From Bugula neritina (Eukaryota; Bryozoa; Gymnolaemata; Cheilostomatida; Bugulidae), in NCBI GenBank assembly GCA_964035545.1, contig OZ037765.1, positions 2,693,501 through 2,757,500 of the forward strand: DNA of 64,000 nucleotides. Reading direction: 5' to 3'. Positions 7,001 through 63,690 of this stretch are shown piece by piece. Position 1 is the stretch's first letter. The number at the start of each line of letters is the position of its first letter. Below the pieces are notes generated by a model. That model was not told the DNA's origin, did no database searches, and saw only the letters and a list, made by a program, of their open reading frames with translations. The position numbers and the translations under genes are program-made.

Positions 7001-8410
7001 GACAAGTACAGACCGAGGAAGCCTAGGTTCTTCAACAGAGTTCACACTGTGAGTGACATTCTCCCCCGCCTCCTACCTCATCACTATGTGGTCCACAGTT
7101 TTGTGTAACTTTTGTGAAGTTTTCTCACTGAATTTCCCAATTGTTTCAGGGCTTTGAGTGGAATAAATACAACCAGACTCACTACGACATGGATAATCCT
7201 CCTCCGAAAATAGTCCAGGGGTACAAATTCAATGTGAGTGGTTTTCTCCCCTTCATTAATATTTTCATTCATAATATTCTAGCTAAGAATACATTTATAC
7301 TTTTTCTAAAAAATGTTCTATCTGTAGTATTCCTGTAATATAATGTATTGTAGTAACTGCAGATGGTAAAGTTATGAAAATTATATCCCACAGTATAAGT
7401 TGTTTTTATTAAGGCTCTAAAACCTTTCCTTGGTGCTCAACGGAAATTTAAATAGAAGCTTCCAAATTCTATAACATTATTTGTGGTTGAATTCCTGATT
7501 TAGCATAACTTGTAAGTTTTGAAATTTGGCCAATAACTACATGCGTTGAATTCTTGGTGTTTAAATAGTAATAGAGCAACGAAGTTGTTACTGAAACCCC
7601 TTCTAGATTTATTTGAGTTGAATAGATGTGTTTGTTAATTATATAACTGACTTGCAATGTTTTACAGATATTCTATCCGGATCTGATAGATAAAGCCAAC
7701 ACTCCGCAGTATTCAGTCATACCAATAGAAGATGACAAGGATTTCTCTGTCCTCAAGTTTGCAGCTGGTCCCCCCTATGAGGTACTTCTGTTACTCTATA
7801 CCAACTGTTCTGTTTCTCTGTTCTTTTAACATTATATAAGGGTAAAGGGTTGCTATGTGGTGGGTAAGGGGTTCACTATATGGTGGGTAAGGGGTTACTG
7901 TATGGTAGGTAAGGGGTTACTATATGGTAGGTAAGGGGTTACTATATGGTGGGTAAGGGTTACTATATGGTAGGTAAGGGGTTTGCTTCACAAGAGTAGT
8001 GGACTCAACTCCATAAGAGTTTTAATCTGATATATAGCAGAAGTTTTCTCAAGTCCTCATCACCAAGTTTTAAATTCTTCTCTGAATTTATATTTAATTT
8101 TTTTAGTATTGTATTAATACATAATAAAAGGTAAACATAAAATACATTGATGGTGGCTTTAAACTAAATCAAATTGAATATTTCGCATGCCACAGTTATG
8201 AGGCCTCAAGCCTTCTTTTGTAATATCTTACCATCTGTAGACGATGTAAATATATACTGTTTATACATAATCAACTTATTTCAGGACATTGCCTTCAAGA
8301 TAGTGAACAGAGAATGGGAGTACTCCTATAAACATGGCTTCAAATGTCAGTTCCAAAATGATATCTTCCAACTGTGGTTTCACTTTAGGAGATACAGATA
8401 CAGGAGATGA
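1004..8410 (+). CDS. cactin: Cactin, 3' fourteen exons (N-terminus off the window)
   Basis: Cactin is a nuclear spliceosome-associated protein first found as a partner of the IkB protein Cactus. Exons: 1004-1105, 1743-1866, 2128-2265, 2919-3053, 3386-3529, 3918-4077, 4229-4351, 4767-4894, 5378-5514, 6155-6356, 6893-7048, 7150-7233, 7668-7781, 8285-8410. Phases agree throughout and give about 623 aa plus TGA. Visible family blocks are ETPEEKRARRLAKKE, DNPFGDHNLTATFVW, a Glu/Arg-rich helix (exon 4), GRAKPIDLLAKYI, GYWESLLQQLKAHM, the EYDEGRCSPKLL block, and the C-terminal Cactus-binding domain (exons 11-14) with KYRPRKPRFFNRVHTGFEWN, PPPKIVQGYKFN, GPPYEDIAFKIVNREWEYS and the terminal FHFRRYRYRR. 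Human Cactin is near 758 aa, so roughly the first 130 residues are missing. The first exon seen starts in phase 2, so it is not the start exon. Identification is very secure; exact acceptors of exons 1 and 4 are less so. Confidence 0.96.
1106..1697 (+). repeat. Minisatellite filling Cactin intron 1
   Basis: About 16 tandem units of 31 or 37 bp, differing by an inserted TTATA. Each unit runs GGTGTGTGT, TTACTATACTTACACTTATA, then TACAG. The array starts at the donor itself (cacag|gtgtgtg) and occupies nearly the whole intron. Every unit boundary reads as a 3' splice site followed directly by a 5' splice site (TATACAG|GTGTGTG). Long open frames here are a by-product of the repeat. Confidence 0.95.
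4687..4766 (+). repeat. Duplicated 3' splice site before Cactin exon 8
   Basis: The real acceptor (taccag|gtggagaaggagatgt, exon from 4767) is preceded by a diverged copy at 4704/4705 (caccag|gtggagagggagatgt). Using the upstream site would add 62 nt, which shifts the frame. Confidence 0.6.
5622..6128 (+). repeat. Minisatellite in Cactin intron 9
   Basis: Around twenty copies of a roughly 23-bp unit, AGTATACAGTATACATAGTGA plus GT, with substitutions (atatag, gtaagt, gtatata). Units hold TACAG and GTGAGT or GTAAGT strings that mimic splice sites. The array lies between exon 9 (ends 5514) and exon 10 (starts 6155). Confidence 0.93.
7841..7985 (+). repeat. Short minisatellite in Cactin intron 13
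   Basis: About six copies of a 22-24 bp unit, GGTAAGGGGTTACTATATGG plus 2-4 bases, shortly after the exon 13 donor (7782). The units contain G|GTAAGG, a donor-like string. Confidence 0.85.
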
Positions 8411-10147: not shown

Positions 10148-13486
<3,339 letters not shown>

Positions 13487-17306: not shown

Positions 17307-30048
<12,742 letters not shown>

Positions 30049-32926: not shown

Positions 32927-35900
32927 CTATTTAGTGCAGACGACACAAGTCAGCTGCTTATCTGCTTCATAAGGTGGACAGTGTACTGTGCTGCCAGTTC
33001 CAGAGCAGTCAGCTTTTACAAAGCAAAGCCGAGATCCTTCAGCATTTCCTTCCGTTACTCTGATGTATTCAGGCTCAGCATCCACACACTCGTAGGTGGT
33101 GGGGTGGGGGTGTTTGTAAAAATTCGCCATCAAATAACCTAAAGAAACAATTGACTACTTTAAACATAAAATGATTCAAAAGAATTAACTAATTAGTCTT
33201 GTAGTACTATACAAAGAAAAGTTTGAAAGTGTGTCAATAACTTATATATATAGTTGTATCATCTCTTTCTCTCTTTCTCTCTTTCTCTCTCTCTCTTGCA
33301 GTCAGTCGATACGACTATGACTGTTTTATGGATTCGGCTTAAATTTGGTTGCAGCTCTCCACGCAGCTCTGTTGTCAGCCGTCTGCTGCCAAGAACCCAA
33401 GTTTATTGCTTTCCATTTCATATTCCTCTTAGCAACATCTTTAAGTCTGAGTCTAGGTCGCCCTGTGTTTTGTTTACCCTCTTTCAGCTGAGAGTAGAGC
33501 AATTGTCTTGGTAGCCGGCTATGTTCTATCCTGTGCACTTGGCCTAGCCATCTCAGGTTCTTTTCTTTAAGGATGTCAGCCATGCTTGGAAAATTGTCAC
33601 GTCTTAATATTTTTTCATTCGCAATTTTATCATACCATTTTACAGCCATTATGTCTCTCAGTTGCCTGATCATGAAAGCGCTTAGCTTCTTCACCTGCGT
33701 CCTGTATATTGTCCATGTTTCTGCTCCATACAGCAGGCTTGAAAGCACCACCGCTCTGTAATTTTTACACTTTACCCTGATGGATACATGTCTGTTGTTC
33801 CAGAGTCTCTGCTGCAGCTTTCCGTAAGCCGCACTTGCTTTGCCTAGTCTGCTCCGTAGCTCTTTATCTATTTTTGCCGTACAGGAAACAGTGCTTCCTA
33901 GATAAGTAAAGTCTGAGGCAAGTACAACTGGTTCTTGATCTATCATGACAACTTCAGGTTCAGGTGGAGGGCGAATGAGTTTGATTGGCTGGTACATGTA
34001 TTATGTATTTTTAATGTTGATTTTTAAGCTAAACTGAGCCGCTGCTTTTGCAAAGTTGTTCACTAGCACTTGCATATCTGCAGCGCAATGTGCCACCAAA
34101 GCACTGTCATCAGCAAACAACATCTTTCTGACTAGGTGTTTGGTAGTACGGGTCTTAGACTTGAACTGAGCCACATCAAAGAGATCAGCCCCATGTCGAG
34201 TTTGAATATAAATTCCTTCATTTGCATTTTTAAATGCCACTTTAAGCATAGCGGTCAAGTATAATGAAAATAGTGTGGGAGCAAGAACACACCCCTGCTT
34301 GACACCATTGGTTACTGCAAACTCATTTGAAGCAACTCTACCTTGCACTACCTTGGCTTGCATGCCTGCATGAAGAGCTTTTATCAGGTTGGTGACTTTC
34401 TCAGTTAAGCCAAACTTCTTCAGTACTCTCCAGTAGAGCTCATTTCTTGATACTGTATCAAAGGCTTTTGTAAAATCTATAAATACAGCATACAGCTCCA
34501 TGTTCTGTTCAGCACATTTTTCTTGAATTTGGCAAAAGCTAAATATCATATCAATGGTGCTCCTGCTGTTTCGAAAGCCACACTGTGTTTCTGAAAATAT
34601 TCCTGGAGTTATATTTACATTGATTCTGTTGAGGATGATACGGGCCATAATCTTTCTAGCTATAGACAAAAGCGAGATTCCTCTATAATTTCTAAAGTCC
34701 TTCCTATTACCCTTTTTAAAAATGGGCGCAATGTTTGCATCTTTCCAGTTTTGTGGCATATTCTCGTTACTCCATATATAAGCAATCGAATCATATAGTT
34801 TGTCTTTAAGCCTGATTCCACTGTACTTCCACACCTCAGCTGGAATGCCACATTCTCCAAGAGCTTTATTCTCCTTGGTTGCATCTATAGCATCCAGAAG
34901 CTTATCAAAACTTGGCATATCATCTAGACTTAAATTGGGTGGCATATTTATGAGAATATTGAGAGCTTCCTGATCCACTTCCCACGGTACATTCAGCAAC
35001 AGGTCAAAATGTTGGGCGAACCTTTTTAAGGTATCATTCTTTGCTGTAAGTACTGTTTCACCACTTTGGTCCAGCAATTGGGCGGTTCCCCTGTTCTGTG
35101 GCCCATAAAATTTTCTAAGGCCATCGTCGAATGCTTTCATGTTGTTTTTATCAGCTGCCTGTTGGAGTGATTCTGCTTTTTCTTCCCACCATTGAGACTT
35201 TTTTCCTCGAGTGTATTTTTGCAACTTGCTGCGTGCTTGCGCTAATCGGTCAGTGCTACTTCTTGTTCTCCTGTGTAGTGCTTTTGAGTTAGCCTTATTT
35301 CGTTCATTTGGTAATGCATTCAGCTTTGCATCATTGTCATCAAACCAACCCTGATGCTTTCTTTCTGCTCTACCTAAGACTTTGGAAGCTGTGTTGAAGG
35401 CTGAGATCTTTAACCTTTCCCATCTCTCTTCTAAGGTTACACCTTCATCATCTCTATAGTCCATTGCCTTATCCATCTGTTTCTGAAACTCCTGTAGCAT
35501 ATCCTCATTTTGTAGTTTCCCCACATTTAGTTTGCATGCTGAATTGCCTCTTGTCTTGTTCTTTGCTTTCCTTAATGCAAAAGCTAGCTTGGACCTGATC
35601 ATGATATGGTCAGTTGAGCAATCAGCACCTCTCATTGCCCTAGTATCTAGCACATTATTCTGGTCTTTCCGTCTTGTAATCACATAATCCAGGAGGTGCC
35701 AATGCTGAGAACATAGGTGCATTCAAGTGACTTTATAATGCTGCCTGTGTGTGCCAGGATAGGCTTATTGAGTTGGCTAGCAACAAGCATCGAGCAATAC
35801 TTTCTTAATCTTTGAATTTTATTTACTCTTTGTCTTGTACAAAAATACATACATAAGTAAACTTCAAATAACATCAACAAAAACATAAAACTTCAAACTT

Positions 35901-37305
35901 ATAATTCTACTTACAAACATCAGCTCTTTATAGCGCCTTCCTGACAAGTGAACTGCTAATACTTCTAATACATTAAAAATAACATAACCAAAAAGCTAAC
36001 AAAATAGCTGAACAAGCTGCAAAAAGCTAACATATATTGTTTATTCAAATTTTGGCAAAGAGCCAGGATTTTCTCCCTGGCACACTGTGCTTGAATACTG
36101 TGTTCGTGATAACAAACTGGTATTCAGAACAGAATGTCAGTAGCAGCTCTCCATTTGTGTTACATTTTCCAACTCCTTGATTACCAATAACGCCTGGCCA
36201 ATTTTTTTGAGCTTCACACTCTACTCTTGCATTACAGTCATTGGCTATAATCAGTTTGTCTGAGATGGATATATTTTTTACTGTTTCTCTCAGTTTATTG
36301 CAAAAATCCTCTTTCTTTTCTTCCGAATTTGTCATTGTTGGAGTGTAAGCACTTACTATTGTCACATAATGATTCTTTTTCAGTGGCAGTCTCATGGTTA
36401 TAATTCTATCACTTATTGCTGTTGGTTCTTGTTCTAGATAAGGCATAATTGTATTCCTAATAGCAAACCCCACCCCTAATTCTCTTCTTTCTTTCTCACC
36501 CTTACCACTCCAAAATAATGTGTACCCATTATCAGCAAGGCTATCATTGAGGGCAATCACACAAAGTTTCACACAAAGCTGCAATATCTATATGTTGTCG
36601 CCCCAGCTCTTTTGCAACCAGTGCTGTCTGCCTCTCTTGTCTTTTTGAATTATTCCGGTCTAGTAATATTCTAACATTCCATTCTGCTAGTCTCAGAACT
36701 TTTCTGAACTTCCCATTTCGTCCTAGCTGACTTTTCACTGGCTGACTGAGCGAGAGCAGACCAGCGTGAACCTTATTAACCCGAGCTAGTATCGAATACT
36801 GTTTCAATTGTCATAATCCATAAAAATGCATGCGAAATGGTCAAGTGAACTTGGCTTTTGTGTTACCATGTTCTCTCTCTCTCGGCAGGGTGTTAATGAG
36901 ATTTAGTGGCAAGAACAGGTCAAGACATGCTAGCATTTACAACCTGCTGCAGTGGCTGGCCGTTATACGTGTTTGTTTGTACACGCCCTTAGAAACTGCC
37001 ACAGATACCCACTGAAATGGTCTTTCAGTAGATGTTATTTTTTAGTTTTACATGGATGTCCAGTACACCCTCCCTAATGTCAAGACATTGGGGGTATCGG
37101 TTTAGTTGCCGACAGCCCGACCCATGAAACAGGTAGTACCGGTTACATGGTTAACGGTAGCAGATTAAACACCTAATCTCAAATACACACACACCACACA
37201 CACACACCACACACACACACACACACCACACACACACACACCACACACACACACACCACACACACACACACACACCACACACACACACACACCACACACA
37301 CACAC

Positions 37306-37341
<36 letters not shown>

Positions 37342-40300
37342 GAGAGATATCTTTCGAGTTCAAAGGCATAGAATTTGAAGCTACAATCGCTACACAATAC
37401 CTTCATACTCCATGGTCCAGCCAGCTGGACAGATCCTTTTAGCTGAATACATCATTACGGCCCCTCTACGTTTGGTATAACACCTGGTACACGGAACATT
37501 TTGATAAAGTGTTCCTTGTGGAAAAATATGTCCGTGACTGTGATCTCGGTATTCTGTGCCAGACAGCCAAGATCCGTACCATGGTGGAGAGGTTCCTGTA
37601 TAATACTTATTGTACTGTGGATTGAGGGGTAGGCACTGAAAGTTTGTTCCGCCACCTGCATGTGTGAAGTGGGCATTGGCAGCAAATCCTAAAAACAAAT
37701 TAAACAATAAAATTTTTGAAGCTATAATAGCTTTGCTTGTTTTTAAAATGTACTGTTTGAACAAAAAACTGTGCAATGGACAAAGGAGTGTGCATGTTGT
37801 GATAGCTAGCCACTGCTATTTCAAACCGGATGTTTCGTATATAGTCGAAGGCTACAAAATAATGGTTTCAAGGTTATCAAGTTACAAAAGCAAAAAAATT
37901 AAACATTAGGATTTTTGTAAACTTGATTTACAACATTCTTTAAAAACACATTTTATCAAACGATAGGCAAATCAAACTTATCATGAGATGTAGGAAACAT
38001 TATATATACTGGGGTTATTAATTTTAAGCTCACTAAACTAAAATTGATTTATAGAATGCAATGCATTGATGTTGAGGGGACATCTTTTATAAAGCTATAT
38101 AATCAATAAAATATTATTTTTTAAGTTGCATGGTGCTCAGCCATGTCAAATTACAGGTCTTAAAAGTAAGCTAGTTTCAAATTTTTGATGGAGAACTGGT
38201 AAAACAATAATCTGCTAAATCAGTTACATGGCTATAGTAATTGGGTACCTTAGCAAAAAAATGCCAGTTTTACTATAAAGTTTTTGTAGTAAGAAAGTCA
38301 ACTAGGGCATAATTATTGAGTGCAAAAAAGTAATAAAAAATATTTTATTTCATCAATAAAAATGTATTATTGTAGTGGCCAGTGAAGCGTAAGGCCACGG
38401 GCTCACGAACCAATCCTCATTAGGCACATGATTCGACCCCCCCCCCCGCAAAGCAGAAAGGCTTCCGGACAGTATTCTCGTAATATAGTTCAGTTAGAGC
38501 GTGATTGTGATAGAATAGGTGTTTTATATATTTGTGTTAATAAACTTATACTACTTTTACTTAGTGTATTAAATAAACCTTCTCTCTTAATTACCCGTCT
38601 GGTGTCTAACAATGCAACGTGGATAATTACAGTGTACACAAATCCCCATACTCAATAAAATTGTGGAAATTATAACATTAATAATTAATAAACCAAATGC
38701 AGAAAAAATTGCACCATTCAGTAAAAATAGGACTCTCGTTGATACTCTCATAAAAACCAGTATTACTTTCTTTTTATTCTTTTACTGAGAAAATAACGCT
38801 TTACTAACTATTAAACATAAATATGAAAAATTAATTATTATCCACTCATAACTAAAATCAGTTTTTCAAAGATGCAGAATTACATCAGATAATCGCACAC
38901 AGATTGCACACCCAAGATTTTTTTCAACTTCGGAAACCTCCTACTGAGCTTAGCAGTTAGGCCAGTGTCATGGACAGCAAACTTGTTTATTGAAATTATC
39001 TAAAGTGGTGGCATATAATGTAGCATTTAAATTGTTCTTCTTTCAAATTCTTTTTGCATGTGCACAAAGACTGAAGATGTTGCTTTCAACACATTTGCTA
39101 ATTTCTTTAGGCTAACAATAGTATCTGAAAAGTTGTAAAGTTTTATATCTACTTTAGACGTCATCTTAAGAGTTGGGACTTTGCTTTACATATTTTTTCC
39201 AATTCAGGTTTCACAGTATTAAAGTCCATCTCAAGTGTCAATTGCTTATTACTCTAGTTGATATACTCAAAGTGTATTCATTGTTTAATGCTCGACAAGC
39301 AAACTTTATTCAAAAATATTTAAACAACTTGTAAAGGCTTTTCCCTATAATAAATTAATTGTGTTTATTTTAGTTGAAGGTATACTTTGTGCTCTATGCA
39401 TAAAAGTATCATAAATTGTATTGCTGCAGGTAACTTGAAAGATCGGAAACTAAGCTGGATTGAGGCAGGCATACAGTATTTGAGTTAGACTCATGAGATC
39501 TAGAGCAATGGTTAAAATAGGTTTACAAAAAGTACAGAGAAATGTGAAAAGAGATAAAATTTCTGAGTGCATTATTTTTATCTTACCAGTATACAGAACC
39601 TCTGAGTCACTTCCACATGATTTTCTCCCCCATCTGGTGTACACGGCACCGCTTTCAACATTGGCAGCACTGCCCTGTTCACCACGAGACCCTTTGTTTC
39701 CTTGTACACCTCTGATTCCAGGAACTCCTGGGTTTCCTTTGTCTCCCTGTTCTCCTTTGACACCTTCAACTCCTGCTTCTCCTTTATCTCCCTTTTGTCC
39801 TGGTAAACCTTGAGGTCCTGCAGCACCGCTTAATCCATCTCTCCCTAGTTAAGTGAAAAATATTATCGTTTGACCAGGCAAACTTTATTATGAGGTCACA
39901 TAAATGTATGCCCAAAATATAACATTATGTGACATGCTGAACATTATTGTATTCTTATACATATTTTATTCTAAAAAGTCATACAGTTATATTTAAATGA
40001 AAACCTAGCCATTGAGTTAAAGTTGTATTGTGAAGTGTGACATTCTATACAAAAAAAATTTGTGATTGATTCTCTACGAATAAACTTTTTAAGATCTATA
40101 AACAACATCGTATTATTCATGAAACTGCAGAGGTATCTCAACACTATACATTCCACCCAGTTCTCCTGCACTCCACTGCAACAATATTTTATAGTAAACA
40201 AACTATTTAAATATGGTTGGACGTTGCATCATTAATTTGATAAAGTTTATTTTTTCTCACCATCTTTGCCATCAACTCCATCTTTGCCATTAACTCCATC

Positions 40301-41617
40301 TTTGCCATCAGCTCCATCTTTGCCATCAGCTCCATTTTGACCATTTAAACCATCTCTTCCATCTCTACCATCTCTTCCATTTTTACCAGAGAGGCCTCTT
40401 ACACCTTTTAAACAATTAAAACATATGTTGGTTTTTTAACTATAACTGTAAGCAATGTTGTTGAATACCTATATTAATTGCTATCTTTCAATTTAAAATT
40501 TACTATTTGAGCTTATACTTCTGTCTGTAAAGCTTAATGTAAGCAATAGCAGCCATGTTTCCAGTATTGAATTACAAGTACCAGTTTCTCGAAAATTATA
40601 ATTTAATCTTTAGCTTTTGTTTTAAAACATATAGATAGTATCATGTGCTGCGTCTTAAGAAAGAAAAACAATGATGTGTCTATACAGCCAGCGAATACTT
40701 GAAAATTGCAATAAGTGAAACCCAAATGCTGAAATCACTTTTTTAAATATAAATGTTTCAAAACAAAAAATAGAGTAATTTTACCAAAGATTCGAATTTG
40801 GTTTATTAGATTGGCCATAAATTCTTCTTCACTTTCTTCTGAACTTATGGTTTGTTGTGCTTGTCCACTGAGCAGCTAAAGTAATAATAATTTGCAACAT
40901 AGCATTTTGTGGGCTAGGAACTTGCAAATTTCATTAGAACAAAAATTTTAATTGATCAAGAATTTTTTGGCAATTATAATTCAACAGCTTTGCAAATTGC
41001 AAACAACATTTTATATTCTTATTAGATAAATAGAGTTTTAACAGTTAATTTTTAGCAGTATTTACCTACACATTTACTAACCATAGTCATGCTTTGTTTT
41101 AACCAAAGATGGTAAACTTTTAGCTTTGTTAAGAGACCAGAAAATCATCCATGAAGCTTTAGTCAAGTTGGGCAAAAATAAAGCTACACTACATTTTCAA
41201 TACGTATTATATAAGCTATAACTGAGAATCATGCATGTAGGTTATCATCAAATAAATAAATAAGGAATATTATATATCATGTCTACCATTTGTAATTAAA
41301 AAAAGTGCTTACTCCATGTTTGCCATTTATAAGTTATAAGTTATTAACCACTGCAAAAAATAATTTAAGATTCCTACCGCCTGAAGTAGAGAGTTGAGAG
41401 TATTCTGTTGAGTAGTGATCATCTCTTTTAAGTCACTGTTTACTTGTTCTTGCTTCTCTAACTTGTCTTTAAGAGCTTTCACCTCAGTGTCCTGTACCTC
41501 CACAAACTCCTTAAGATCTTCACAGTTACAACTCAAAGCTTCAACCAGCATGCCATCAGAGTTATAGCCGAGCATAACATAAAATATCAGCCCTAAACAC
41601 AGTTTAAATCTGTCCAT
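32927..41617 (-). CDS. Short-chain collagen, gene 3 of 4
   Basis: Exons on the - strand: 41617-41378, 40875-40785, 40404-40261, 39844-39587, 37688-37401, 33138-32927, giving 410 aa, the longest copy. The start is MDRFKLCLGL with signal peptide and full coiled coil. It has 35 Gly-X-Y triplets: exon 3 has grown to 16 by repeats of GKDGAD/GVN type. Exon 4 is the long form, as in gene 1. Exon 6 is the most diverged of the four (EYIRVTEGNAEGSRLCF, GTGSTVHC) but keeps all its cysteines. Intron 5 carries a LINE and intron 4 an LTR-like insert, both outside coding sequence. No break is seen. Confidence 0.92.
33326..33997 (-). pseudogene. LINE C-terminal region after RT
   Basis: 223 codons in the same frame as the RT segment, past the stop. 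It shows the family's thumb and tail (FTYLGSTVSCTAKIDKELRS, RAVVLSSLLYGAETWTIY, LRWLGQVHRIEHSRLPRQLL). Confidence 0.8.
34001..35722 (-). pseudogene. LINE reverse transcriptase domain
   Basis: A 573-codon open segment: end of the endonuclease (HWHLLDYVITRRKDQ, GADCSTDHIMIRSKL), then RT blocks ANIAPIFKKGNRKDFRNYRG, SETQCGFRNSRSTIDMIF, VFIDFTKAFDTVSR, NGVKQGCVLAPTLFSLYL and the active-site MLFADDSALV. It closes with TAA at 34003-34001; the same frame then continues. Confidence 0.85.
35723..36062. mobile_element. 340-bp insertion inside the LINE, unclassified
   Basis: It splits the endonuclease between GRKSW and MHLCSQHWHLLDYV, residues adjacent in this family. The inserted sequence is AT-rich, with no coding frame and no clear terminal repeats or target duplication. 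Confidence 0.5.
36045..36807 (-). pseudogene. LINE endonuclease domain, frameshifted
   Basis: Two overlapping frames (36807-36544 and 36584-36045). The first holds LRLAEWNVRILLDR and HIDIAALCET, the second SGKGEKERRELGVGFAIRN, a NDCNARVE variant of the catalytic GDFNA motif (here A-N-D-C-N), and GVGKCNTNGELLL. The frame change near 36560 and loss of the Gly-Asp pair indicate inactivity. Confidence 0.8.
37182..37341. repeat. (CA)n and (TA)n microsatellite
   Basis: CA repeats broken by extra C (ccaca), then TA and GA runs, at the 5' border of the LINE, before exon 5 of collagen gene 3. Confidence 0.9.
38371..38677 (+). mobile_element. Solo-LTR-like insertion in collagen gene 3 intron 4
   Basis: Absent from the matching intron of genes 2 and 4. 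It starts TGTAGTGGCCAG and ends in ..TATAACA, with AATAAA strings near 38538, 38570 and 38654. Target duplication is not clear in this AT-rich site, and the right end could instead be near 38630 (..GGATAATTACA). It includes a run of C near 38440-38448. Confidence 0.55.
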
Positions 41618-47423: not shown

Positions 47424-52133
<4,710 letters not shown>

Positions 52134-55339: not shown

Positions 55340-55440
55340 ACCCAGTAGTCCTGGTGATGTAATGGTCAGTTCATGATGTAATGGTTAGCAAGTTTGCAAG
55401 CCAGTGGTCTCGAGTTTGAATCCCAGTGAGGGAAAATGTG
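55340..55440 (+). mobile_element. tRNA-derived SINE fragment
   Basis: A-box-like GATGTAATGGTTAGCAAG, present partly twice (also GATGTAATGGTCAGTTCA), and a B-box-like GAGTTTGAATCCCAGTGAGG. Same head family as the SINEs in the collagen units. Confidence 0.6.
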
Positions 55441-57411: not shown

Positions 57412-60400
57412 ATGGCTTGTAAGGATTTATAATACTACTTACTATTACAGCAATTTTAAATCATCAATTGTTGCTGAAATTTTGCACTGTATGCAATTTT
57501 CAAATATTATATATTACCCTAATATGACATAAATAATTTACATGTATACAATATTTGTTGGCAACTTCATATTAGAAATTTATCACTTGCATAGTATAAT
57601 ATTCACCTGCATAGTACAATATCTATTTACTTAGCTTTTAAAAGTAAAACTTAGCTATTATTGAAGAAATATCTAGCTGTTTAAAATAATAATTAGAAAC
57701 CATGTAAAATGGGATGTGTAAGTCCTTCATAAAACCTGGTATACCTAATGTAGTAATGAGTTTACCCAGTGGTCCCTGTGGTGTAATGGTTAGCATACTT
57801 GCTTGCAAGTGTGCTAACCATTGGGTTCAATTCCCAGTGAGGGCAAAATCATTTTTCACTTAACGGTGCATAAAAGATAATCTAACAGTATATCTGTGAT
57901 ATTTTTAAGTCTTAGATATTAAATTTAGCTTACTAACAATTTATTAAGTTTTTAATACTTTAAATAGTACTTGCAAAATGTTGCTTTTCCAAAATAGGCA
58001 GTATAAAGGAAAGCTTATATATGTTTCGCCAAAGTATTGCTATTTTTAGAATAAAAATACTTGGAATATAAAAAGGTATTGTAAAAAGGTTAACGCTACT
58101 TTTCATTATTGTTTTCCTTAATAACATATTTCTTCATAATGAATTTTATTTTTGACAGTTTATAAAGTGTGGTTCAAGCACTCTGGTATGTCAGAAGCTG
58201 ATGTGAGGGAGTCCAATTCTAAGGTGGTAAGACTCACTAAATCAGAGATTAAACAGAAGGTAGGATCAGAGAAGATAATTGAACTTAAGATCCATGGTAA
58301 TCTACCTTCAGACATACAAGAGTGGGCTCTGGATGTGACCCACCTCCAAATCAAACGAGTAGTGACAAAAGCAAGTCTGAAAAAGTTAGTGAATTTTAAA
58401 TTTTAAAATATTTTTTGTAGAAGTGCCATGATTTCAGCAGGTAACCAAAAACTACCAACTGGTTACATTTTGAAGACTCCGATACTTATATTGTGATAGA
58501 TCAATTAGCTATTAGCTAATAATTATGTTGTACCTGTATTGGCTATGTTGCATGGTGGCAGTTTTTTTACCCAGCTTAGGTTCCTAATAATATTTTCTCT
58601 CAAGTTCAGGTTTGATATGTAAACGGACTAATTTCTTGAGTTGAAAATGCCTATTCTACAGTTCAAGCCTTTTTTAGAAACAAGCCTTTTACGTAAGAAA
58701 TTGTTTGATTTCCAGTCTCTCAAAACTGACTAAGGTAACAAAACTGAAAATCTCTGATAACAACTTTGGAACTCTTCCCGATGAAGTATCATCTTTGACC
58801 TCTCTAACAGAACTCACTCTACAGGCAAATGGTATCACAGATCTGCCGAACAGGTTGGTGTTAACTAGTATACACGCTTGCTTGACTTAATCAATTTATG
58901 TAATTTTAAAATATGCAGCTGCTGGACAAAGAAGTAGGTGTATTAAAATTTCTAAAGATATTTAAAAACATGAGATTTCAAATTTTCCCTATTACTGCAC
59001 TTAAATAAAAACGGAGTGCACTTTTGAAAGAATATTCACAATATTAATATTCAGTACATTATGGCAGCAATACAGGATTGAATGAGTATATGAAGCAAGC
59101 AAATTTCATAAATACTTGGGCAAATGAAAGGTTAACTTTCACAGCTCTATATTTTTTAGCTAACTATAATGTTACACGATTTTTCTGCACCTCTTGATAA
59201 TTTATTGTTTACTGCTAACTATTGATGAATCGATTTTCAAGCACACCTTCTTTGTTTTGTTTTATTATTGTATTTTTATAATATTTTATTTTACATGTCT
59301 AAATGCATGCTTTGATTCACTGCATCGATAGTCTAGGGAGGCTAAAAGAGCTTACAAAGTTGGACATTTCACACCAGCAGTTTCCCAAAGTACCTTCTGT
59401 TATTGAAGATCTTACAACGCTCACTGAACTCATAATGATTGATTGTGGGTTGTCTACTCTACCTGAAAAGTAAGCATGATACCAGCAATAGTGCAATCAC
59501 AAATAGCACATCATATAGTAGCCCTGAGGTTAACTGTAAATTTTCTCTTAATTCCTTGAACAATACTAGCTGACCTAGAATTTGTTAGACGCAGCACCCA
59601 GTCTAAGGTCGCTGAGTGCAGTAGTTGAGTGGCTGGGGAGAAGGGGCTGGTGCTTTGATTTTAGACGTATAATATACAAACCCTACACTTGTTGACCCCA
59701 AACTTTAAGCTACTTGTTAAATTACCCATCCTAGTAGTGATTTACTTCCCTATATAATATGTCTATCTGTTTTATTTTCTACTTTAGTCTGATAGGAATT
59801 AAATTTCTCAACATTAAGCTGTTCTAATATTTTTAGTTTGCAGTGTTTTTCAAGACTACAGAAGTTGGATGTATCTGACAATCCTTTGTGTGTTGTACCG
59901 CAAGTTATTCCTTCTCTTCGCAGTGTCACTGCCCTAGACATGAGTGGGTGTCAGATCAAAGTTTTCTCTCCCAGGTAGCCATTTACTCATTATAGTGTCT
60001 TTTTTGTAAATCATTGACATTTTAAAGTAATTTTTGACTTCCTTTTGTAGCTTTTGTTAAACCGGTTTCTTTTTTGTTCTTATGGCAAAAAAACAGATTT
60101 TACTTTTGTGTTGGTGCAAGCATTGTAACTTGATAACATGAAGGAGATTACTTGCAATCAACACGTTGTTTTTTTTAAAAACAGCATATGTGTTTTTAAA
60201 AATTGACTTGAAGAAATGCTTTAGTTTACATTTCATGTGTTGTACTTGCAGCTTGACAACCCTGCCTGAACTGGTGACATTAGATCTTTCAGGCAACTGC
60301 TTTACAGAATTACCTGTCACGTTCAACCGTATGAACAAGTTGGTTTCAATAGATCTGAGAGGAAATCAGAGTCTCACCTCGTTAACTGCCTCAATTAGAT

Positions 60401-63400
60401 CTATGGAAACATTGAATGAAGTCAGGGTGGGTGGCTGTGAGTCCCTAACCTCACCTCCATACCAAGATTGTGAGAAAGGTACTCAAGCTATTAAAAACTA
60501 TTATGAAAGCCTGCGCCAAGGAGAAATTATTGAACTGTCTATGGCTACCATTATCGTAGTTGGAGAAACTCTTGCCGGTAAAACTCGAGTTATAAAATGT
60601 CTGCAAGAACCGGGTACTGCATTTGATTTAGATCAAGCCACGAGAGCCTTCGAAGTTACTGAACTACAGTTTCACAAACCACTGTCCATATTGGAATTTG
60701 GAGGAGGTCAAAAGTATCAATTTACTCACAGACTTATGCAAAAGGAAAATTGTCTGCCGGTTGTAGTTGTCAGCATGAAAGAGTTTGAAGACAGACACAC
60801 AGTTCAAGGTATCTCAGCAAAAAAGGTAGTGCAAGCTCTAATTTTCAACTGGATCAACCAATTCTATTTTTCCTATTCTGGTTTAAATTCTCCCAAACTT
60901 GTCCTGACTAACAAGGATGGATTCTCTGATGATCCTCAGAAATTTACTGAACTAAAACGTATTCTTTTACAAGCCTGCAATTCTGTAATCGCAGACATAA
61001 AAAAAATTGAAGAAGGCAAATATGAGCCAAATGAAATTTCTGAAAAAAGAGATTTGTTTGATTTTTTTGGAGAAAGAGATGTCTTTGAAATCGGTGCACA
61101 TCATACCGATATTGAAATCCTTACTCGTTTGAGAGATGATTTGTACCAAGACAGCAACAGGTACAAGAGGTCAGTAGCAAAGACGTATGACAAAATAAAA
61201 AAAGTACTTTTATCTGCTGATGAAACCGTTGTCGACTTGAATGCAGAATATGGCATTTGGTCTGTAAATTTGCAAGTAAACAGAAGTCTCATTGAAGCTA
61301 CAATGGAGCATATGCATGATTCTAGCCAACTGTTGTTGTTTAAGGACAGTGAAAGGCTAAATCAATTTCTTTTTCCAAACATTGGTAAAATTGCTGAAAT
61401 GATTGGAGTGTTGTTCCCAAAAGACACAGCTGCAAGAGTAGATCATTTCACCAGAATTTTCTCCCTTAATTCGATAGAGAATAAGCAGGTGTATGAAGAT
61501 TGTTATGCTTTTTTTTCTACTTCTGGTCTTATAGAGGAAAAGCTTCTTTTTCTTTTATTGAAATTCGAAACAGCATTTTGCAATGAGCAAAGTATGGATG
61601 TTGCTGTAGCTTTATTGGAATCTTTCCAGTTGCTTTTCAAGCATCGGTGGTCTGAAGAAAAGATTTTTTATGTCTTGCCATTTTCTTCTGAAGACCATTT
61701 CAGCAACCATCTTCATAGTCCAGAAGAAAAACTCAAGTTCCGCACAGAGTTGAGATTCACCAGTTTCCTGGTGGACTTCTCCGTCTACCAGCAGATGGTT
61801 GCCACAATGCTCAACTATTCTCTGGGAGAAACAAGAACTGTAGTTAAACAAAATGGCATTCAAATTACCACCAACTTTTCTACTGTTCAACTTGCATTTG
61901 ATTTTGAAGCTAGAAAAGCTGTGCTACAATTAGCGACTAAACCGAAAGATGTAGGTGTCGGTTGGCAGCAGATTAGAGAATTGACAAACGATCTGATCAC
62001 CCAAGTTGTCAATTGCTTGAGAACTGAAAGCGTCACTTGCAAATCATTCTGTCCACATTGTTTGGCCGAAAAGAGAGTGCCTCCTTTTACCACAACAAAC
62101 CCCGACTGGTGCACTTTGTCCACAGCGCCTCAACAAGAAAGACAACTCTGCAATACTGGAATGAATGTCCCAGGAGCTTTGCTGTCACCCTGTAAGTTGA
62201 TAGTTTAAAGAATGAGAATAATGTTTAAACACACCATTTACGCTTGAGCTGTTATAGTACAACTAGCAGGAGTTCCACAGAAATAGAAACTTTCAACAAG
62301 CATGAGTAAGAGTAAATGATGCAATGGTGTTCACAAAAACCTGGCACTTGAGAGATTGAGTTGATTAATTGCATTAAATGCATTTGCCTAATAAAAATAA
62401 TAATGAATGAACTGTAAAATAAGTTACTATATATGTTATTTATTTAAGCATTCATCGTAATAAAATTTATTATAGAACAAACTGATCACATTTCTACAAA
62501 AATCAGTATATATCAACTGTTTTATTTTATTTCTCAACTTGACTGCACATGCATTAAAATTACCAAATTTCATTTTTTATTGTCATTTTCCAGGTGAGGA
62601 ATTGTCAGATGAGGACGTGAGAATCTTGGAAGAATTTGTTAACAACATTCAGCAACATCAACCGCTTACTGGTATATTTAATAATTTGCCTAATTTAATA
62701 ATGTTTTATACATTTATAACATAACTTTTGGTCGTGTCATAGTTGGTAAATTCAAATCTACAAAATAATGACTCAAATTTATTTACGGAATTTATTCATA
62801 GCATTGTGATTTCAAAGCAAATTTACTTTTGAAGCAAAGTTAATACAAATTTTCTGCTTGTTTATATCTAATAGATGAAGAATATGAACACGCAATCAGC
62901 ACCTTTGATCTTGGTGATGACGAGGAGTTATCTACCGCTGACTCATCAAGTATTGAATCATATTCACTCAGTGAAGCAGATGCAGATGAAAATGAAGATG
63001 ACGGTACCGAAAGTGTGATATCTGCCCCGGAAGAATGGCCTCCTCAAGATGGAATAATTCCATTTGAACTTGTTCCAACCACAAAAAGAAGCATACAAGA
63101 TTGTTTTCACAATGATGATGTAAGTAACGTTATGTGAACAGCAACATTTACATTTACGAGCAGTAGTGGAGAAGTTTGGATAGCCTAAGTTCTTTAATTT
63201 CATTATTAAACTTTAGTTCTGGGGTTTTGGTGGAAATTCTTGCAGGAACATAACTTTTTATGCTACGTTTCTAATTTAGAACACAGGCTTTTCTCAATAT
63301 CTCTATTACTACACCTATAAGCTCAAAATTTAGGCTCTCGATTAAATCCTAAAGCTGTGGTTTAATTTATGAAGTAACTTTGTATTATGGAGAGTGCTGA

Positions 63401-63690
63401 CTAAGATTGTGATCAAGAAATTTAGACCGCTCACCAACCAGTGAAATACAAACAATTTTTTATAAAAATGCTTATAAAAGCCAACTGATGCATACCTTTA
63501 CAGTTCTATGTTTTGTTTTAAGTATTACGGAATGACTACGCCAAGAGGAAGAGCCTTGGTGATTAACAACTACAGATATAGAGATCCTTACGATATCCGG
63601 GAAGGTGCAGAGTACGATGTCAACAACACACGAGCACTGCTAGAAGGACTAGACCTCAATGTTACAGTAGAGCATGATCTCAGAAGAGAC
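57412..63690 (+). CDS. LRR - Roc-COR GTPase - caspase fusion (5' part; continues past 64000)
   Basis: A predicted intracellular signalling protein. Exons: 57412-57418 (ATG GCT T), 58159-58384, 58716-58853, 59332-59469, 59837-59974, 60252-62191, 62594-62671, 62875-63119, 63523-63690, then a donor (gtgagt). Phases agree: 1026 codons. Residues 1-77 have no recognised domain. About 78-285 are leucine-rich repeats, 46 residues per 138-bp exon. The Roc domain starts near 310 with P-loop GETLAGKT (320-327), a switch II-like EFGGG (364-368; Glu replaces the usual Asp) and a TNKD base-recognition motif (435-438). The COR region (about 500-830) has FSTSGLIEEKLLFLLLKFE, KIFYVLPF and a terminal CPHC (816-819). 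An acidic Ser-rich linker (889-970) precedes the caspase p20 start (971-1026: PRGRALVINN, REGAEYDVNNTRALLEGLDL, HDLRRD). Catalytic His and Cys would lie off the window. The start Met has a fair context, but upstream coding exons cannot be excluded. That all exons form one gene is inference from phase and lack of stops. Confidence 0.85.
57770..57850 (+). mobile_element. tRNA-derived SINE head in intron 1 of the fusion gene
   Basis: TCCCTGTGGTGTAATGGTTA resembles the 5' part of tRNA-Glu, and GGGTTCAATTCCCAG is a good B box and T arm. The acceptor stem pairs poorly and the anticodon arm is replaced by TTGCTTGCAAGTGTGC, so it is a retroposed head. Confidence 0.6.
63265..63330 (+). repeat. Dispersed repeat before the caspase exon
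   Basis: TTCTAATTTAGAACACAGGC and the following ttttctcaa..tattact.cacctat recur near 15330-15380, 31697-31750 and 53786-53840. Its presence in an intron of the fusion gene shows that it is mobile or low-copy dispersed. Family unknown. Confidence 0.5.

Follow-up and report, generated by a model that had tools for sequence, protein, structure and literature searches.

A predicted gene family joining leucine-rich repeats, a Roc-COR region and a caspase in the bryozoan Bugula neritina

In well-studied animals, immune proteases are usually recruited via adaptors. A locus in the cheilostome bryozoan Bugula neritina raises the question of whether one animal gene can encode both the sensor and the protease, since its predicted protein looks like an immune receptor with its own weapon, in which a module for recognition, a switch governed by GTP and a protease of the cell-death type are combined. 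The locus lies in a 64,000-nt stretch of DNA (C1:2693501-2757500, C1 being chromosome 1; the whole stretch is called the window here) of the 215.8-Mb B. neritina genome (assembly tzBugNeri2.1; available text of PMC11480708).

Nine exons between positions 57412 and 63690 of the window (+ strand) form a single open frame of 1026 residues, with AG before and GT after every intron border and consistent phases, which bears out the nine-exon gene with matching phases of the preliminary description. The exons are as follows:

57412..57418, + strand, exon 1: ATGGCTT, 7 nt, leaving phase 1; same start (MAFYKVW) in the annotated protein P0005
58159..58384, + strand, exon 2: N-terminal segment ahead of the leucine-rich repeats (LRRs)
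58716..58853, + strand, exon 3: LRR pair, 138 nt, phase 2
59332..59469, + strand, exon 4: LRR pair, 138 nt, phase 2
59837..59974, + strand, exon 5: LRR pair, 138 nt, phase 2
60252..62191, + strand, exon 6: 1,940 nt, last LRRs and whole Roc-COR region, ending in phase 1
62594..62671, + strand, exon 7: short exon of the linker, phase 1 at both ends
62875..63119, + strand, exon 8: acidic linker, whose tail common to the paralogs reads VPTTKRSIQDCFHNDD in the window copy; ending in phase 0
63523..63690, + strand, exon 9: first caspase p20 exon, from RGRALVINN to HDLRRD, ending in phase 0

The 7-nt first exon is supported because P0005, an independently annotated B. neritina protein that is 86-87% identical to the window protein (87% over residues 1-515), begins at the same MAFYKVW. 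The domain order is LRRs, Roc-COR, acidic linker and the start of a caspase p20, with the LRRs scoring far over the Pfam cut-offs. The window ends 310 bases past exon 9, inside the caspase, and the following 5,000 bases read N. The proposed order of LRRs, Roc-COR and caspase was upheld, and many paralogs repeat it, as does another bryozoan, Watersipora; the LRR-Roc-COR-caspase architecture is secure. At L009, exons 7 and 8 each have a downstream duplicate that looks degenerate by eye.

A genome-wide Peptidase_C14 profile search, in which 150 of 295 candidates were scored, gave at least 176 matches, 149 of which define at least 119 caspase loci. The mostly non-random sample taken from these comprised 20 ten-kb regions hand-chosen across contigs, 4 of 16 randomly drawn three-kb regions and 8 short loci. 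With the window protein alone as the tblastn query, the Roc-COR exon (650-690 residues or more) was found in 14 of the 20 ten-kb regions and pieces of it in 3 of the 8 short loci. In profile searches, a Roc-COR exon preceded the caspase exon, both on one strand, in 14/20 ten-kb regions, 3/4 three-kb regions and 3/8 short loci, where the profiles for Roc-COR, the acidic tail and the first caspase exon were partly built from the same loci, which thus match by construction. With L004 and L039, which are one locus, counted once, Roc-COR precedes the caspase in the same orientation at 19 of the 31 distinct loci. The acidic exon also passes in 13 of the 14 ten-kb Roc-COR loci (the exception being L017), and 11 of the 14 Roc-COR matches are free of stops, with one stop each in L017 and L023 and six in L026. 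At the other 12 loci, the Roc-COR exon was absent from the stretch read, which for five short loci (L001, L002, L003, L005 and L006) comprised a 1.5-kb flank; L016 has the acidic and caspase exons, with no Roc-COR found in the stretch read. Among the loci without Roc-COR, inspection by eye revealed ankyrin-repeat-like ORFs before the caspase in L024 and L027, an isocitrate-dehydrogenase-like ORF adjoining L011, and retroelement ORFs inside L012 and L018. The sampled loci confirm, at the level of predicted genes, a dispersed, multicopy family of LRR-Roc-COR-caspase genes in B. neritina, the size of which is perhaps dozens. We consider it moderately probable that the window gene is a member of this family that acts as a ligand-triggered receptor-protease.

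The putative switch of this receptor-protease has the following features, the positions of the three motifs having been counted by hand:

60526..61167, + strand: Roc domain, limits approximate and taken from the parts of the model that align to Ras-like GTPases (model residues 92-305)
60562..60585, + strand: P-loop GETLAGKT (G1)
60694..60711, + strand: G3 region EFGGGQ (D-x-GGQ or D-x-GGN in paralogs)
60907..60918, + strand: G4 TNKD (THKD in P0001 and P0002)
61168..62106, + strand: COR domain, approximate limits by inference (model residues 306-618; alignments to LRRK2 and CtRoco)

The Pfam scan of the window protein named neither Roc nor COR. A phmmer search among solved structures matched its Roc to 4wnr (E 1.2e-5), and in all eight paralog ORFs scanned, of the 11 without stops, Roc exceeded the Pfam cut-off of 27 bits (28.0-34.5 bits). 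COR stayed under the Pfam cut-offs in these eight ORFs, the best COR-A score being 32.1 bits (cut-off, 35.3) and the best COR-B score 21.6. Exon 6 was modelled with AlphaFold on a 14-sequence alignment (pLDDT 73.6, pTM 0.73; a 3-sequence alignment gave pLDDT 30.5). The model aligns across Roc and COR of LRRK2, CtRoco and MbRoco2, and LRRK1 was also matched, with LRRK2 and LRRK1 as the best solved-structure matches; the alignment behind it (A3) contained bacterial Roco homologs, which by itself tilts the model towards a Roco fold. The predicted fold supports a COR domain directly after Roc in the window copy, and GETLAGKT, the 4wnr match, the paralog Pfam scores and the fold together identify a Ras-like Roc domain with a P-loop, as in Roco proteins.

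The GTPase of the window copy may be unusual because its switch I is shortened, with about nine residues missing relative to the paralogs, and its G3 is deviant, with LEFGGG in place of D-x-GGQ or D-x-GGN. Both features, the shortened switch I and EFGGG at G3, are common to the window copy, P0001 and P0002. They favour a reading that we regard as improbable, in which the window copy acts as a pseudo-enzyme or decoy: its GTPase, its protease or both would be inactive, and it would regulate active relatives; the catalytic half of the window caspase lying outside the readable sequence, the duplicated exons 7 and 8 of L009 and the stops in other paralogs are further points on that side. However, the reading frame, the P-loop and all splice sites of the window copy are intact, and the divergent Roc form appears to be kept rather than decaying because the window copy has it in common with two sequences (P0001 and P0002) that are 85-86% identical to it.

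The putative recognition part of the receptor-protease bears on what the family may do. In several paralogs, LRR exons occur in tandem; these are in phase 2, measure 138 or 144 nt and encode two LRRs each. Replacements at the six concave strand positions were compared with those at other positions, using 20,000 random site sets, in the four paralog arrays L022, L017, L014 and L028, the three LRR exons of the window copy being outside this set. Concave pN/pS values were.509/.136 versus.020/.094 elsewhere in L022 (5 exons) and.435/.305 versus.065/.119 in L017 (7 exons), with none of the 20,000 random sets as high in either array, and.286/.138 versus.036/.022 in L014 (3 exons), with 150 of 20,000 as high. 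No significant concave concentration was found in L028 (8 exons;.227/.330 versus.141/.240), where 3,132 of 20,000 random sets did as well. Pooled over the four arrays, the values were.347/.277 at concave positions and.092/.165 elsewhere, so that concave pN/pS is modestly above one. This test leaves aside the three-exon set of L019, in which dissimilar exons are mixed and no concentration occurs, the L017 exons read a second time at 144 nt, and loci without at least three equal exons. The concentration of replacements on the concave face in three of the four arrays fits relaxed or positive selection on a predicted ligand face, and the proposed receptor role gains support from it.

A receptor-protease mechanism is likely, judged from the predicted domains. 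The LRRs would bind a non-self or danger ligand, and binding would shift Roc-COR both in its nucleotide state and between monomer and dimer. Association through COR would then pair two C-terminal caspase domains, leading to activation by proximity, perhaps accompanied by cleavage in the acidic linker. The GTP-driven dimerisation suggested in the preliminary description runs contrary to CtRoco, which is mainly a monomer when GTP is bound and a dimer when nucleotide-free (available part of PMC6337361), so by analogy the sense of the switch may be the opposite. The outcome would be cell death or cleavage of immune substrates, and the whole would be like an inflammasome or a resistosome folded into a single chain.

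The same molecular logic would equally serve a cell-death trigger for development or colony life, such as polypide regression or recognition between colonies, with no pathogen receptor involved. Bryozoans are colonial and their polypides undergo regular breakdown, and variability in the LRRs would also be useful for distinguishing one colony from another. Such a role nevertheless seems unlikely, in that many dispersed copies with variable LRR exons would be more typical of pathogen recognition and the prokaryotic counterparts, AP-GTPase conflict proteins, are interpreted as counter-invader systems in the accessible text of PMC8195603. A bolder extension of the receptor-protease reading, which we hold tentatively and rate somewhat short of even, is that bryozoans have a repertoire of dozens of single-chain receptor-proteases, diversified as phase 2 LRR exons were duplicated in tandem and the ligand face came under selection, and possibly also by alternative splicing, which replaces the combination of NLR, adaptor and caspase. 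If true, this would be an animal immune system with parallels in the Roc-COR-effector systems of prokaryotes and the ROCO genes of brown algae.

In the receptor-protease reading, the caspase belongs to the same chain as the switch. Peptidase_C14 matched residues 978-1025 of the window protein with 18.3 bits, under the cut-off of 21.4, with profile positions 1-48 only being readable, and exon 9 matches the p20 of caspase-4 among solved structures (E 0.0015). The p20 His and Cys motifs and the p10, which the preliminary description proposed to seek further to the right, were found in paralogs, the window copy being readable only through the first p20 exon. Four paralog gene models (L020, L022, L025 and L029) extend through p20 into p10, those of L020 and L025 reaching a stop after p10 and those of L022 and L029 ending within it, and all four caspase parts have Peptidase_C14 scores of 103.6-126 bits. 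The nearest solved structures to the L020 caspase are those of an ancestral caspase-3/6/7, of an entry titled simply Caspase (3sir, 3sip) and of CED-3. HG and the Cys motif are present in 13/13 readable ten-kb Roc-COR loci, with the Cys of L023 being the penultimate residue of its match and L030, whose His/Cys exon is beyond the region read, standing outside the count.

Whether the linker and the caspase belong to one gene was addressed at their junction. The best-scoring phase-consistent junctions in the four paralogs have phase 1 (Roc-COR/short), 1 (short/acidic), 0 (acidic/caspase) and 0 (first/second caspase exon), and the window copy has the same phases, 1, 1 and 0 followed by a phase 0 donor. 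The acidic-caspase junction was tested in 20 rows representing 19 distinct loci, including the window and L016 and excluding L007 and L017 (no acidic match) and L003 and L027 (weak acidic match). Phase 0 is the best solution in 20/20 rows. In 15 of them the donor comes immediately after the shared tail (LFSNTDK-like), and in L014, L016, L019, L025 and L030 it lies a few residues later. The introns include some of 86 nt (L004/L039), 90 nt (L015), 103 nt (L020) and 105 nt (L028), the longest being 1,613 nt (L037); 61-nt introns for L014, L016 and L030, probably reflecting mis-chosen donors, were not used. The NCBI-annotated Watersipora subatra protein P0004 contains LRR, Roc, COR, acidic linker and caspase in one protein, with Pfam scores of 26.2 bits for Roc (cut-off, 27), a weak 14.6 for COR and 18.2 bits over 49 caspase positions.

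These data bear on the alternative of two adjacent genes, one for LRR-Roc-COR and another for the caspase, the latter starting at a conserved Met (MTTPRGRALVINN) within the caspase exon. A Met stands just ahead of the caspase in each of the 20 rows and in P0004, as expected if the caspase had, or has, a start of its own, and it may recall an ancestral free caspase. However, the junction test disfavours a separate caspase gene: the phase 0 junction fits every row, the best donor usually abuts the shared tail, introns of 86-105 nt at several loci leave scant space for a terminator and a promoter, and P0004 is continuous across the junction. Two genes are therefore very improbable, and the single protein joining all parts, as first proposed, looks like the product of one gene. 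Chance juxtaposition is also disfavoured because paralogs repeat the same arrangement, as seen with the window protein alone in tblastn and then with the profiles.

The distribution of the predicted receptor-protease was examined in protein searches that gave at least 2, at least 79 and at least 78 matches, with about 8,000 candidates scored in each, so that relatives outside the length limits or the candidates may be missed. The close relatives among the matches listed come from Bugula, Watersipora and metagenome entries. Among the 78 matches listed, 43 (P0080-P0122; 483-735 residues, 32-88% identity) resemble pieces of the Roc-COR exon, and Pfam detected no caspase in five longer, more distant Roc-COR matches (P0123, P0131, P0137, P0138 and P0150). 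No published animal LRR-Roc-COR-caspase protein was found among the literature matches listed, most subscription journals being outside their scope, or in the available parts of PMC7159879, PMC2575513 and PMC3196919. A sponge study lists CASc and COR among the domain labels of one NLR figure (PMC12909245, available in part), and a sponge protein with both may exist. The suggestion that the order is undescribed in metazoans thus stands as far as the animal reports among the literature matches listed are concerned, and outside animals it has a precedent in prokaryotic proteins with C-terminal caspases (PMC8195603, available text). What appears to be new is the predicted LRR-Roc-COR-caspase order in an animal gene family, the same order in prokaryotes being already known from that source. 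If the receptor-protease reading is true, the effector-on-a-receptor plan proposed for prokaryotes would extend to animals, where Roc-COR instead of NACHT would be the switch. The family would offer a simple system for what Roco switching does mechanically, in which the caspase could be the read-out, and the LRR exon arrays would be testable, putatively variable binding surfaces. It would also bear on non-self recognition in colonial invertebrates, which have no adaptive immunity.

Several known systems share parts of this arrangement. The animal Roco proteins MFHAS1/MASL1, LRRK1/2 and DAPK1 share Roc-COR with the B. neritina family, and all except DAPK1, which lacks LRRs, share the LRRs too; LRRK and DAPK proteins carry kinases, and a caspase is present in none of these proteins as described in the literature examined. 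Bryozoan homologs are labelled MFHAS1 by automatic annotation, a label that is the source of the name and implies no orthology. Prokaryotic AP-GTPase proteins have the same order of LRR, Roc-COR and C-terminal effector, and their C-terminal position holds at least 24 domains, a caspase included (accessible part of PMC8195603); the likeness is one of domain order by description. In contrast to these proteins of prokaryotic hosts, the B. neritina family consists of intron-rich animal genes, the window gene lying on an animal chromosome, and has an animal-type p20/p10 caspase and an acidic linker. Brown algal ROCO genes have shuffled tandem phase 2 LRR exons, positively selected concave sites and several members, and are proposed immune receptors; however, their exons are 72-bp single-LRR units, versus the 138/144-nt two-LRR exons of B. 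neritina, and they encode LRR-ROC-COR only, with a caspase unmentioned in the available text (PMC11378527). Roc-COR is also joined to an immune-type domain in other animals, in Porites P0138, where a Pfam scan found GT4-conflict after LRR-Roc-COR, and in Aplysia TLR-like proteins with Roc and COR (PMC9334734, available part), but the added domain is a glycosyltransferase in the former and TIR in the latter, whereas it is a caspase in the B. neritina family. With hits up to E 1 reported, the Pfam scan of the window protein's 1026 readable residues gave 12 families, with neither NACHT nor NB-ARC among them. NLR and inflammasome proteins resemble the B. neritina family in combining an LRR sensor, a nucleotide switch and a caspase output. 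In classical NLR systems, however, the switch is NACHT or NB-ARC and the caspase and the adaptor are separate proteins, whereas the predicted B. neritina proteins have Roc-COR as the switch and the caspase fused to it.

The region covering the downstream flank of the LRR-Roc-COR-caspase gene (L009) contains second copies of two exons of that gene, which encode the short linker (exon 7) and the acidic linker (exon 8), and two caspase loci elsewhere in the genome, in stretches without a Roc-COR exon, carry open reading frames (ORFs) upstream of their caspase exons. The following were recognized by eye:

L009 ~7537-7616 and 7791-7940, second copies of exons 7 and 8, degenerate looking
L024 6358-8012, ankyrin-repeat-like ORFs upstream of caspase exons
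L027 5578-8607, ankyrin-repeat-like ORFs upstream of caspase exons

The exon copies lie downstream of an unreadable (N) stretch, and their presence there suggests that the gene has a tandem duplicate. The arrangement read in L024 and L027 may represent a second sensor-caspase fusion type in the B. neritina genome. Among the 119 caspase loci listed, 36 are on contig C6 and 29 are at 32.8-35.5 Mb of chromosome 1, within the last 3 Mb of its 35.64 Mb.

The window itself contains several repeats and probable mobile elements:

21876-29745, minus strand, GC-rich probable retroelement (ORFs by eye, base composition, terminal repeats)
33326-36587, minus strand, LINE-type element ORFs (endonuclease and reverse transcriptase likeness, by eye)
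11621-12246, 20316-20363, 39723-40388, and 50779-50926, 18-bp and 45-bp repeat units whose minus-strand reading gives Gly-X-Y (by eye)
57772-57845, inside intron 1, tRNA-family match (29.8 bits; gathering threshold, 29)
~55345-55430, upstream, stretch similar to that match (by eye)

The GC-rich element (53 to 62% G+C in four 2-kb steps versus ~33% in its surroundings) has minus-strand ORFs resembling gag, protease, reverse transcriptase/RNase H, and integrase by eye, and it is flanked by two 300-nt direct repeats that share 99% identity. It is probably an LTR retrotransposon of the Ty3 type, young and with an unusual base composition. An additional ORF of 544 residues has C2H2-like motifs. ORFs similar to those of this element occur, by eye, at two other caspase loci, L012 and L018. 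The Gly-X-Y stretches probably belong to several copies of collagen-like genes, and the two tRNA-like stretches are probably a tRNA-derived SINE.

In a coral (Porites) protein, P0138, and a metagenome protein, P0150, LRR-Roc-COR is fused to a GT4-conflict glycosyltransferase.
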